Source: Pseudanabaenaceae cyanobacterium SKYG29 (lineage in GTDB: Bacteria > Cyanobacteriota > Cyanobacteriia > Pseudanabaenales > Pseudanabaenaceae). Taken from it: a stretch of DNA of 64,000 nucleotides. Position numbers and translations under genes: made by a program. How positions within the stretch are numbered: the stretch's first letter is position 1; each line of letters opens with the position of its first letter. The DNA lies in the NCBI GenBank assembly GCA_025055675.1, contig JANWWT010000001.1, forward strand, positions 868,001-932,000. The letters are read 5' to 3'. Under the pieces are notes generated by a model. The model saw only the letters and a program-made list of their open reading frames with translations, had not been told where the DNA came from and searched no databases. Below, in pieces: positions 23,101 to 26,959 of this stretch.

Positions 23101-23310
23101 GCTTGCCGATGAGGGCTGAGCTTGCCGATGAGGGCTGAGCTTGCCGATGAGGGCTGAGCTTGCCGATGAGGGCTGAGCTTGCCGATGAGGGCTGAGCTTG
23201 CCGAAGCCCGACTTACACAAAACGCTCCCTTCGACAGGCTCCCTTCGACAGGCTCCCTTCGACAGGCTCCCTTCGACAGGCTCCCTTCGACAGGCTCAGG
23301 GAGCAGGTAG
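23101..23310 (+). repeat. Left repeat array beside the GIY-YIG gene
   Basis: Five perfect 19-bp units of GCTTGCCGATGAGGGCTGA (23101-23195) run into hairpin 1 (GGGCT ... AGCCC, 23189-23209). A 14-base linker GACTTACACAAAAC follows, then five 14-bp units of CTCCCTTCGACAGG (23225-23294). The array closes with CTCAGGGAGCAGG. Units are adjacent with no spacers, so this is not a CRISPR. The same linker and hairpins recur in the right array in the same orientation. Confidence 0.93.
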
Positions 23311-23355
23311 GGATAGGCTCGGGAGGCATACTACCTTTGTTTATGGTTTTCCTTA

Positions 23356-23673
23356 CTACCTATCTGAATCGGCTTGATTAGCTCTAGACTTTGACAGGCT
23401 TTTTAACAGATTTAAGTCGTTTTTAATAAGTGCTTCCTTCTTTCTATGGCTCCAACCCTGCACCTGTTTTTCTCGTCGGTAAGCGTCAGCAACCCGATCG
23501 TAATATTCGCAATACACCAACTTTACTGGTAACCTTTTGGCTGTGTAATTTGCTCCTTCTCCCCTTTGGTGTTGGGCTAGTCGCCTCTCTAGATCAATCG
23601 TACTACCTGTGTAGTAGCTACCGTCACAGCATTCCAAGATGTACATGTGAGGCATATCAATTTCCCAAATCAT
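23356..23673 (-). CDS. GIY-YIG single-domain endonuclease (UPF0213 type)
   Basis: 105 aa with the whole minimal GIY-YIG fold: MYILECCDGSYYTGSTIDLE holds the two Tyr motifs, followed by the conserved Arg in ERRLAQHQRG, LPVKLVYCEYYD with the catalytic-type Glu, and KQVQGWSHRKKEALI. The ATG at 23655 (MPHMYIL) is a likely alternative start. It stands alone between two arrays made of the same hairpin units, which suggests the enzyme and the repeats belong together. Base and codon usage was not compared. Confidence 0.9.
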   Translation of the reverse strand: MIWEIDMPHMYILECCDGSYYTGSTIDLERRLAQHQRGEGANYTAKRLPVKLVYCEYYDRVADAYRREKQVQGWSHRKKEALIKNDLNLLKSLSKSRANQADSDR

Positions 23674-23713
23674 GTTGTAGTAATCATACTTCTAGCACTT
23701 TATGTAGCACTGA

Positions 23714-24032
23714 GGGCTGAGCTTGTCGCTGTGGGCTGAGCTTGTCGCTGTGGGCTGAGCTTGTCGCTGTGGGCTGAGCTTGTCGCTGTGGGCTGAGCTT
23801 GTCGCTGTGGGCTGAGCTTGTCGAAGCCCGACTTACACAAAACGCTCCCTTCGACAGGCTCAGGGAGCAGGTAACCACAGGCTCAGGGAGCAGGTAACCA
23901 CAGGCTCAGGGAGCAGGTAACCACAGGCTCAGGGAGCAGGTAACCACAGGCTCAGGGAGCAGGTAACTACAGGCTCAGGGAGCAGGTAACTACAGGCTCA
24001 GGGAGCAGGTAACCACAGGCTCAGAGAGCAGG
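23714..24032 (+). repeat. Right repeat array beside the GIY-YIG gene
   Basis: Five perfect 19-bp units GGGCTGAGCTTGTCGCTGT (23714-23808) lead into hairpin 1 (23809-23829, GGGCT ... AGCCC). The linker GACTTACACAAAAC and hairpin 2 (23844-23868, GCTCCCT ... AGGGAGC) follow. From 23858 a 23-bp unit beginning GCTCAGGGAGCAGGTAA is repeated seven times plus a partial eighth, with C/T changes in two copies. No spacers. The expanded piece differs from that in the left array. Confidence 0.93.
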
Positions 24033-24208
24033 TGGGGAGAAACTTAAAAATTGCAGTTTTCGGCAAGGAAAGTTCCGAAAAATATCACTAAAGCCACTGT
24101 TTTATGCCTACTGCGGGCTGAAACGCTCTGTTATGGTATATTCCATTAGGCGGCAAGTTATGCCTAGGGCGTTCTTGCTATTTAAGTTAGCTGAGGAGTA
24201 AACACACA

Positions 24209-26959
24209 ATGGCATTAGTAATTGGTAAAGATACTGGCGACTTCCTCATTGCTGGGAACGAAGGCGATGAGATCAGAGGTCTAGGGGGTAATGACACTAT
24301 TATCGGTGGTGAAGGGGTAGACACCCTTAATGGCAATGCAGATCAAGACTTGGTCATCGGTCGGTTCGGTGCCGATCGGGTTTACGGCGGTCAAGGTAAC
24401 GACACCGTAGTTGCCACTGGTGCTGGCATGATCCTCAACGGTAACAAGGGTGAGGACTTAGTAATTGGTTTTGGCAACTCCACTGTATACGGTGGTCAAG
24501 CGAACGATACGATTTACGGGGCAGAAGGGACTGCCAATGGTGACCTGGGTGCTGACCTGATTTATGGTGGTGCGACCATGCTGGGTGGTGCAGACCCGGA
24601 TGTAGATAGTGGTGTACCTGCAGGCAATGACACCCTAGTTGGCAGCAGCGGTAGCAATACCATGACGGGTGGACGGGGTGATGACCAATTTGTCTTCCAG
24701 CCCGCTGTGGTTAGAACTTTCAACCTCACATTTGAGCGTCCTCTGTTTACTAATATCGCTGGCGCCAATCAAGTGACCGTAACCTCTGGTGGCTACGGTG
24801 GTACTGACGTAATTACTGACTTCTCTGCTGGTCCTGGCACTGGGGACATTGTTAAGCTGGTTGCTTTGGACTTGGGTTCTACTGTAACGATCGAGCAGGT
24901 AGGTGCTAATGTTCGCATCGTAGTTGCTGGTACCACTTCTCCTGATGGTTTGGGGGCAAATGCTGGTACAACGGCAGGTACTCCTGGTGCAGCGGCTCCT
25001 ACTAACCAATCTGCTGCTCAGACAATCATCATTAACAACGTCAACGTCCTTGACTTCCTAGCAGTTGGCAGCGAAGACTTGGAAGTTAACGGACAGATCA
25101 TTAACACTGCTACACCTGGTTTGGCAGTACTCAACCCCAACCGCAATGATGCCTTCCGCTTTACTGTAACCTCTCGTCAAGGGCGTAACATTGATCTCTC
25201 TCGTACTGGCATCATTGGCACTCGCTTAGATGCTGATTTTGCTCCTGATGGTATTCCTTTCCCCTCTGTAAACAACGACACAATCAACGGTACTGCAGGT
25301 AATGATTCCATTGCCGGCTTAGCTGGTAACGATGTGATTACTGCTGGCTCTGGTAATGATTCTGTTCGGGGTGGCACAGGGGATGACACGATTTGGGGTC
25401 AAGGAAATAGCGCCCCAGATCCAAACAAAATAGTTGTGACCAGTGACACACGTACTATTACCATCACAGTAACTGACATTCTCTACGGTGATGAAGGTAA
25501 TGATTCAATCCTAGGTGATGGCCCTGGCTCTTCCAATGAAGGCCCAGACTTCATTGATGGTGGTGCCGGTGACGACTCTCTGTTTGGTAACTCTGACTCA
25601 GATACTGTGTTCGGTGGTGCCGGCAATGACTCCATCCAAGGTGGTACTGGTGGTGACTCCCTCTACGGTGGTGCTGGCAATGACACTATCAACGGCGGTC
25701 CTTTTGACACCAGCGCTGATACTATCTTTGGTGAAGACGGCAATGACGTACTGTTTGGGGACGGCGGTAACGACTCTATCTATGGGGGTGCTGGCACTGA
25801 CCTGATATTTGGTGAGGATGACAATGACACCCTACTGGGTGAAGCTGGTAACGATACAATCTACGGTGGTGCAGGCCGTGACTCCATACTTGGCGGTGAT
25901 GGTGATGATACCCTCGATGGTGAAGGGGATAACGATACCATTCGTGGTGGTGCTGGTAACGATTCCCTGTTTGGCGATCAAAGCAATGATTTGTTAGAGG
26001 GCGGTCCTGGTAATGACTCGATCGATGGTGGTACTGAAAACGCCCTCACCTCCTTGGCTACTATCCCCACTAACTTACTCAGCCCTGCTGGTCAGAACAA
26101 CCTTATTGATGTGCCTGGTGCTGATCCTGCTGTTACGGCTTTCCCCAATGGAGTAATTGGAGACGTAGTCAGTTATGCTGGAAACACAACCGCTGGGGTA
26201 ACCGTTAGCTTGTTGACTGGCGTTGCTACTAGCGCTGACAGTGGTACTGATGGCATCAAGGATGTTGAGCACGTAGTTGGTTCTAACTTTGCAGATAGCA
26301 TTACTGGTGATAACTTTGCTAACCTGCTGGTAGGTCTAGCTGGTAATGATGTCATCAGTGGTTTGGCCGGCACTGACTTTATCAGCGGTGGCGACGGTGA
26401 TGACTCTCTACTCGGCGGCGATGGAGATGACACTATCAATGCTGGTGCTGGTAATGACACTCTGGTAGGTGGAGCAGGTGCAGATGTGCTAACAGGTGGA
26501 ACTGGCGCCGATCGGTTTGTGTTCCTTGCTCGCACTGAGGGTCCAGACCGCATTACTGACTTCTCTATTGCTGCTGGTGGCGCAGCCATTACAGAGGTTG
26601 ATTTGATTGTTTTAGACACTAATGGTACATTGCCTGTACCAAATGCGCCCCAAGGATTTGGTGGCACTGCAGGCTTGACTCTGAACCAAGCAGCTACTAA
26701 CCCGTTCCCCACTGCCGCATTCATTCTAGGGAATGGTAACATTCCAGCAGCAGGTCTCGACATTGGTATCGGCTTCCTCGATCCTAACGGCGTTCCGCTA
26801 CCTGTATACTTCTACGACCTGCCCTCTGGGAGATTTGGGTTCGATCCAGATGGTGTTGGTCCTCAAACCATCATCGACCTTGCGATCCTCCCAGCGAACT
26901 TGGTTCCCGCCACTCCTACGGGGGCAGAAGCATTTGCAAGCGCAGTGGTGTTTGTATAA
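24209..26959 (+). CDS. RTX (hemolysin-type calcium-binding repeat) surface protein
   Basis: 916 aa. Clear GAGGAG site before ATG 24209. Glycine-Asp nonapeptides (GGxGxDxLx type, e.g. LGGNDTIIGGEG, YGGAGNDTINGG, FGEDGNDVLFGDGG) fill residues ~15-150, ~350-600 and ~690-770. The spacer blocks contain VTDFSAG-type segments that fold around calcium. There is no N-terminal signal, as expected for type I secretion. The C-terminal ~60 residues end in a hydrophobic FASAVVFV. Cyanobacterial S-layer and motility glycoproteins have this make-up. Acidic throughout. Confidence 0.92.
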   Translation: MALVIGKDTGDFLIAGNEGDEIRGLGGNDTIIGGEGVDTLNGNADQDLVIGRFGADRVYGGQGNDTVVATGAGMILNGNKGEDLVIGFGNSTVYGGQANDTIYGAEGTANGDLGADLIYGGATMLGGADPDVDSGVPAGNDTLVGSSGSNTMTGGRGDDQFVFQPAVVRTFNLTFERPLFTNIAGANQVTVTSGGYGGTDVITDFSAGPGTGDIVKLVALDLGSTVTIEQVGANVRIVVAGTTSPDGLGANAGTTAGTPGAAAPTNQSAAQTIIINNVNVLDFLAVGSEDLEVNGQIINTATPGLAVLNPNRNDAFRFTVTSRQGRNIDLSRTGIIGTRLDADFAPDGIPFPSVNNDTINGTAGNDSIAGLAGNDVITAGSGNDSVRGGTGDDTIWGQGNSAPDPNKIVVTSDTRTITITVTDILYGDEGNDSILGDGPGSSNEGPDFIDGGAGDDSLFGNSDSDTVFGGAGNDSIQGGTGGDSLYGGAGNDTINGGPFDTSADTIFGEDGNDVLFGDGGNDSIYGGAGTDLIFGEDDNDTLLGEAGNDTIYGGAGRDSILGGDGDDTLDGEGDNDTIRGGAGNDSLFGDQSNDLLEGGPGNDSIDGGTENALTSLATIPTNLLSPAGQNNLIDVPGADPAVTAFPNGVIGDVVSYAGNTTAGVTVSLLTGVATSADSGTDGIKDVEHVVGSNFADSITGDNFANLLVGLAGNDVISGLAGTDFISGGDGDDSLLGGDGDDTINAGAGNDTLVGGAGADVLTGGTGADRFVFLARTEGPDRITDFSIAAGGAAITEVDLIVLDTNGTLPVPNAPQGFGGTAGLTLNQAATNPFPTAAFILGNGNIPAAGLDIGIGFLDPNGVPLPVYFYDLPSGRFGFDPDGVGPQTIIDLAILPANLVPATPTGAEAFASAVVFV

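Follow-up and report, generated by a model that had tools for sequence, protein, structure and literature searches.

A GIY-YIG nuclease gene framed by double hairpins, a pairing that recurs in many bacterial phyla

Results

A GIY-YIG nuclease gene lies between two hairpin arrays

Direct reading of positions 23101-24033 of the window (the 64-kb stretch of DNA analysed here, C1:868001-932000 of a 2.56-Mb host genome in 18 contigs) revealed an intact GIY-YIG gene on the minus strand. It lies between two repeat arrays of the same orientation, a placement that the first-pass annotation had described. The features of the locus, located by sequence and repeat search for the arrays and by Pfam, alignment and AF2 for the nuclease, are as follows.

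23101..23209: left array, hairpin 1 part; 19-bp half-hairpin units (GAGGGCTGAGCTTGCCGAT) leading to a complete hairpin 1, GGGCTGAGCTTGCCGAAGCCC, at 23189-23209
23210..23223: left linker, GACTTACACAAAAC, identical to 23830-23843
23224..23304: left array, hairpin 2 part; the 14-bp half-hairpin unit GCTCCCTTCGACAG, four times, leading to a complete hairpin, GCTCCCTTCGACAGGCTCAGGGAGC, at 23280-23304
23356..23673, minus strand: single-domain GIY-YIG nuclease (UPF0213 / prokaryotic Slx1-like), 105 aa
about 23711..23829: right array, hairpin 1 part; 19-bp half-hairpin units (CTGTGGGCTGAGCTTGTCG) leading to a complete hairpin, GGGCTGAGCTTGTCGAAGCCC, at 23809-23829
23830..23843: right linker, GACTTACACAAAAC
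23844..24033: right array, hairpin 2 part; a complete GCTCCCTTCGACAGGCTCAGGGAGC at 23844-23868, followed by seven 23-bp units AGGTAACCACAGGCTCAGGGAGC (3' arm plus spacer)

Both arrays contain the hairpin 1, shared linker and hairpin 2 that the annotation had pointed out, and no second plausible gene was found between them, again in agreement with it. Its description of the repeats as arrays of a double hairpin needs amending: each side of the gene does have one complete double hairpin, but the tandem units, of 14, 19, 19 and 23 bp, are half hairpins, made of a single arm plus loop or a single arm plus spacer. In the window element, the gene is thus enclosed by one complete double hairpin per side, accompanied by expansions of half-hairpin units. 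Within the 64-kb window, matches that keep the hairpin core (at most one mismatch) all lie at the GIY-YIG locus, bar three scattered degenerate ones. The hairpin 2 part of the left array (23224..23304) gave a DNA fold of -5.5 kcal/mol (z -2.0), and an Rfam search returned no match near threshold. Directly downstream of the right array is a large RTX/hemolysin-type calcium-binding repeat protein gene (24209-26959), a flank conserved in the congener G002.

The encoded protein matches Pfam family PF01541 (E 2.2e-16) and belongs to the UPF0213/Slx1 lineage. Alignment suggests that translation in fact begins at the internal Met of MPHMYIL, with the codon ending at 23655. In an alignment, the conserved residues Y5, Y15, G17, R25 and E62 are all intact, and because Y15, R25 and E62, the expected catalytic residues, are invariant among 24 relatives, the nuclease is probably active. 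In an AF2 model (pLDDT 90.7), the nearest folds were the UPF0213 structures 1zg2 and 1ywl, with Slx1, a branched-DNA nuclease, coming next. Searched with the window nuclease, a plasmid collection gave no near-identical records, and viral contigs contained few relatives.

Hairpin copies are dispersed through the host genome

The core TTCGACARGCTCAG occurs in 16 exact copies in the 2.56-Mb genome, arranged in several clusters, while the reversed control occurs in none; this copy number is far from chance. A second element, at C2:137480-138130, consists of a decayed GIY-YIG gene, interrupted by three stops and 62% identical, with hairpin arrays on both sides and a related linker, GACATTCATAGAAAG. 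Lone hairpins lie at C1:665712 and C2:282609, and further copies are found inside coding sequence, in a hisH-like gene (C1:775.9 kb) and a secF-like gene (C6:234.3 kb).

Within the hisH-like gene (SSASTSSASTSSAG; C1:775417-775942, L017) and the secF-like gene (C6:234348, L020), TTCGACARGCTCA repeats stand in frame and have added amino-acid repeats. At C2:275829-275980 (L019), the 3' end of a GIY-YIG gene of another subfamily (178 aa) directly adjoins an array of the same hairpin, made of GCGACAAGCTCAGCCCTCAT units.

Two congeners were compared with the host. In G002 (78% identical), synteny is interrupted at the window element: the downstream RTX-like gene stands without the element, and only a degenerate half hairpin is seen at that spot. 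In G001, hairpins are dispersed and a related linker, AACTTACA, is present; the gene is undetectable there.

The gene-hairpin pairing recurs in many bacterial phyla

Among 291 Cyanobacteriia genomes, 22 encode a close relative of the nuclease, and nearly all of these relatives have inverted hairpins nearby with the core TTCGRC-N2/3-GCTCA. A search of GTDB species, made by protein only and yielding a nuclease family partly defined by the query's relatives, gave 76 named loci in many phyla. Hairpins spread without enrichment near GIY-YIG genes would have spoken against the first-pass annotation, and this is not what the 76 loci show: core density was 4.6/kb within 200 bp of the gene, 1.1/kb at 200-500 bp and 0.14-0.25/kb beyond, making the core about 30-fold denser within 200 bp than kilobases off, while a reversed-core control stayed flat at 0.03-0.13/kb. 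A motif-free test counted the 13-mers shared between the two 400-bp flanks of each gene and took its control windows from the same contigs; at least five 13-mers were common to both flanks at 40/73 loci, compared to 36/4770 control windows (p about 1e-57). Hairpins were present on both sides within 300 bp at 51 of 66 loci, and the flanking pair had the polarity '-', '+' in 32 of these 51, with the window among five of opposite polarity. Taken together, these findings reveal that the pairing of gene and hairpins is real and general, recurring in many bacterial phyla.

Hairpins belong to particular nuclease lineages

The protein tree comprised 92 nucleases. Of the 50 in the clade that includes the window nuclease (support 98/88), 49 had hairpins at their loci, whereas a related clade, comprising archaea, streptococci and other Firmicutes, an Escherichia sequence and Chloroflexi, had them at 0/17 (Fisher 5e-15). 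Orthologues without repeats nearby, the other outcome that the annotation had counted against itself, are thus not what the clade shows, and the hairpin-free related clade acts as a built-in negative control, which shows that the pairing belongs to particular nuclease lineages. Hairpin type follows nuclease phylogeny: core type changes 14 times on the nuclease tree, compared to 32.0 changes when shuffled (0/200 shuffles).

Loci that do not have the cyanobacterial core carry sister hairpins, such as GGTGGCTTCGAGTGCCTCAGCCACC in Chryseobacterium, CCCTCGTCCTTCGAGG...CCTCAGGATGAGGG in Rhizobiales and GGTCTCGATACG...CTACTCGACC in Microbacteriaceae. An unbiased table of every hairpin junction is topped by TCGA/CTC, which occurs at 34 loci with unrelated stems and is 58-fold denser near the gene than far from it (1.61/kb vs 0.028/kb). 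DNA folds place a two-base TC bulge at the junction of the Chryseobacterium and Rhizobiales hairpins and GA, the complement of the TC bulge, at the same place in the Agromyces hairpin; in the shorter cyanobacterial hairpins, the whole core folds as an open loop. Since hairpins with unrelated stems share TCGA/CTC, and given these folds, the fixed part of the hairpin is the junction, and in the stem only the base pairing is preserved.

CGTC REPs at genes of a second GIY-YIG subfamily

A second, distant GIY-YIG subfamily (L185 1501-1746, L122 8001-8240) was met in hairpin-rich genomes, and its relatives occur in Neisseria gonorrhoeae, Aeromonas, Azospirillum, Shinella, Sphingobium and viral contigs (L258-L262, L265-L267, L239-L247). 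These genes are framed by GTC-tagged hairpins, for example GTCATTCCCGCGAAGGCGGGAATCCA, and an inverted pair of such hairpins often stands some 60-90 bp away from the gene. A tagged hairpin (tag plus a stem of at least 6) was found within 300 bp at 16/22 loci, the density of such hairpins being 3.9/kb near the gene vs 0.34/kb at 1-3 kb, and inspection by eye showed variant tagged hairpins at most of the other six. The hairpins of this subfamily are CGTC REPs, and those in Neisseria are dRS3. A 2013 survey reported that CGTC REPs, including Neisseria dRS3, show no association with transposase genes (Di Nocera et al. 2013, PMC3733652), and dRS3 repeats are known to serve as phage integration sites (PMC10745880). 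CGTC REPs and the second subfamily look like a sister case of the window pairing.

On a Planktothrix agardhii plasmid (NZ_LR882964.1; L264), a gene of the second subfamily, flanked by GTCATTCTGAG... hairpins, has an MmeI-type restriction gene on one side and the DISARM gene drmA on the other.

Evidence for mobility, and limits of copy number

The patchy presence of the gene, its cross-phylum nesting and the decayed second copy in the host genome speak for a mobile past, and the GIY-YIG/hairpin element is probably mobile. Horizontal spread is seen in the nuclease tree, where Thiothrix nests with Leptolyngbya (100/95); the cases in Geobacteraceae and Deltaproteobacteria (L053, L054) come from near the ends of MAG contigs and could reflect faulty binning. 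At one Rhizobiaceae site with shared synteny, a gene segment of about 550 bp between hairpins is inverted in L089 (7844-8437) relative to L086, L088 and L090, and synteny between Bacteroidota and Rhizobiaceae loci breaks at the hairpins.

At orthologous positions, G238 does not have the hairpin arrays of G187, and one MITE that carries hairpins is absent from G193 and G226. While this presence and absence of hairpins was seen, neither a clean insertion junction nor a target duplication could be recovered at a putative type I restriction locus (G187 vs G238), in 200 kb of G187 vs G014, at the MITE site or beside thrS, because the sequences on either side have diverged too far to place junctions exactly. 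The restriction locus, moreover, looks transferred, so that G238 is no sister genome there. A region that resembles a type I restriction locus by sequence similarity (L124 1700-13000; G187 C1:1926700-1938000) contains most of 43 hairpin cores that occur in 19 kb; several of the cores apparently lie inside coding sequence, and the region is apparently shared horizontally with G238.

At least 20 hairpin copies were present in 13/22 GIY-positive genomes vs 22/269 GIY-negative ones (p 3e-8), a comparison that is confounded by Pseudanabaena, in which many copies are passengers inside MITEs with IS-like ends; copy number therefore does not measure nuclease activity, and we set it aside as proof of nuclease-driven spread. 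Among the 22 hairpin-rich cyanobacterial genomes that gave no initial match, the nuclease was absent even by profile search from 19, and the other three contain GIY-YIG genes without TCGA...CTC hairpins. A resident gene is thus unneeded to keep, and perhaps to spread, the hairpins. Two MITE families in Pseudanabaena (G187; L194 18108-18213; L192-L195), with ends GTATAG... and TTAGG..CTTGC..., contain inverted hairpin pairs with 1-5 tandem half units.

Discussion

The reading that we favour, and consider moderately probable, is that of a REPtron-like element, in which the gene for a minimal structure-selective nuclease sits between adapted hairpins that the nuclease would nick and the host would copy or move in pairs. 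Such a hairpin would combine a freely variable outer stem with a fixed junction, 5' ...T-TC-GA...CTC-A..., in which a two-base TC bulge is followed by GA:TC. It would extrude as single-stranded DNA, on the lagging strand, or as a cruciform, and the nuclease, acting as a bulge-recognising nickase, would recognise the bulged junction and cut one strand there. GIY-YIG enzymes hydrolyse DNA and we know of none that performs strand transfer. Any spread would therefore require the host, whose repair and replication may carry hairpin pairs to new sites by copying or moving them, at times together with the gene. Gene-less hairpin pairs would then stand to the element as REPINs do to RAYTs, being its non-autonomous derivatives, and the tandem half-hairpin units could be by-products of repair or slippage at a cut hairpin.

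That the nuclease spreads the hairpins, rather than the gene landing at them, is the direction that we infer from the complete hairpins on both sides and from the co-variation of hairpin type with the nuclease. It is unlikely, in our judgement, that the hairpins are instead a landing site, with a homing-type GIY-YIG gene inserting in or beside palindromes spread otherwise, by IS or MITE activity, recombination or slippage. Many hairpin-rich genomes without the gene, hairpins inside IS-type MITEs and the use of related dRS3 repeats as phage integration sites (PMC10745880) would fit such a history. However, at 51/66 loci both sides carry complete hairpins and not half sites, so the gene has split no single target; in addition, hairpin type tracks nuclease phylogeny over phyla, and GIY-positive genomes are enriched in copies.

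Rather more doubtful is the suggestion that the nuclease is no selfish spreader but a host-beneficial manager of hairpins, placed beside its substrates for trimming, cruciform resolution or regulation of its own gene. The presence of the gene in 22/291 genomes is patchy, it has been transferred across phyla, it has decayed in its own genome and it has no conserved neighbours, all of which is unlike a housekeeping gene, even though the fold is nearest that of Slx1, a branched-DNA nuclease, and the hairpin-free UPF0213 relatives at streptococcal and archaeal loci look vertically inherited and syntenic. We give very little credence to the idea that the gene is a passenger, merely over-represented among small genes captured at a recombination hot spot made by hairpins: hairpin arrays are indeed rearrangement points (the window element in G002; Bacteroidota vs Rhizobiaceae loci), but one protein clade shows the association almost without exception and a related clade not at all, and a second GIY-YIG clade shows it again with hairpins of another class.

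Palindromic repeats rank with the most abundant repeats of bacterial genomes, and to our knowledge a dedicated enzyme is known for the GTAG/RAYT class alone. The present results link two large hairpin classes, across many phyla, to an unrelated nuclease superfamily and make the origin and movement of these repeats directly testable with 100-aa proteins and 25-nt hairpins. UPF0213 genes, annotated merely as 'GIY-YIG nuclease family protein', split into a hairpin-linked, probably mobile kind and a hairpin-free kind, and a hairpin-specific nickase would have practical use. A wider proposal, which we put forward tentatively and hold at slightly below an even chance, is that GIY-YIG nucleases are the missing enzymes of most non-RAYT palindromic repeats, with at least two clades that have their own hairpin superfamilies (TCGA...CTC, and CGTC REPs including dRS3) and a nuclease-and-repair mode of spread unlike known transposition.

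Comparison with known systems

The first-pass annotation had likened the locus to REP elements and their RAYT transposases, with a GIY-YIG protein in the enzyme's place; as an arrangement this likeness is well supported, and it also holds for the second subfamily with its CGTC REPs. Like REP/REPIN-RAYT (TnpA-REP) REPtrons, the elements described here have short dispersed palindromes, often in inverted pairs and arrays, with a bulge or mismatch in the stem, and a small nuclease gene framed by them; the gene is patchy, and hairpins remain where it has been lost. The palindromes are both dispersed and concentrated at the enzyme gene, with 16 exact core copies in the host genome and a 30-fold excess at the 76 loci. 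The enzyme, however, is a GIY-YIG nuclease and not an HUH Y1 transposase, so that covalent tyrosine chemistry is not expected, and the phyletic range differs. No HUH/Y1 tyrosine transposase lies between the window palindromes, where the GIY-YIG gene (PF01541) stands alone, and the hairpins have no GTAG-type tag at the palindrome end, their fixed part being the TCGA...CTC junction inside the stem. With transposase and tag both absent, a RAYT system was ruled out.

CGTC REPs, including dRS3, are likewise palindromic repeats that here frame a GIY-YIG subfamily, but this belongs to another GIY-YIG clade, and the window hairpins have the TCGA...CTC junction and no CGTC tag; the combination of (C/T)GTC tag, AT-initiated stem and CCA tail is absent from them. 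IS-element MITEs are similar as short gene-less inverted-repeat elements, some of which carry hairpins in Pseudanabaena, yet the hairpins at GIY-YIG genes do not have those MITE ends and have a conserved junction of their own. IS-like terminal inverted repeats and a target duplication were not seen at the window element, and no insertion junction could be read at the GIY-YIG loci; some Pseudanabaena copies lie in MITEs.

GIY-YIG homing endonucleases of the I-TevI type share the catalytic domain superfamily and selfish spread. The window nuclease differs from them in having no NUMOD or DNA-binding domain, no intron and no split target, as a complete double hairpin, and not a half site, stands on each side of the gene, and it falls on the Slx1 side and not the UvrC/HEase side of the superfamily. 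The UPF0213 or prokaryotic Slx1-like nucleases, which include the closest solved structures (1zg2, 1ywl), have the same single-domain fold and conserved residues, and the window nuclease indeed consists of a single GIY-YIG domain with the conserved Tyr, Arg and Glu; the archaeal, streptococcal and Escherichia members that were fetched differ from it in having no flanking hairpins (0/17).

In the open-access literature, we found no paper that links GIY-YIG nucleases with bacterial palindromic repeats. The comparison points to an undescribed kind of repeat-linked element, whose enzyme is unrelated to the one known for such repeats. We regard it as a new kind because the enzyme comes from another superfamily and any mechanism would have to differ, while the plan of an enzyme with dispersed palindromes has a known analogue in the REPtrons.
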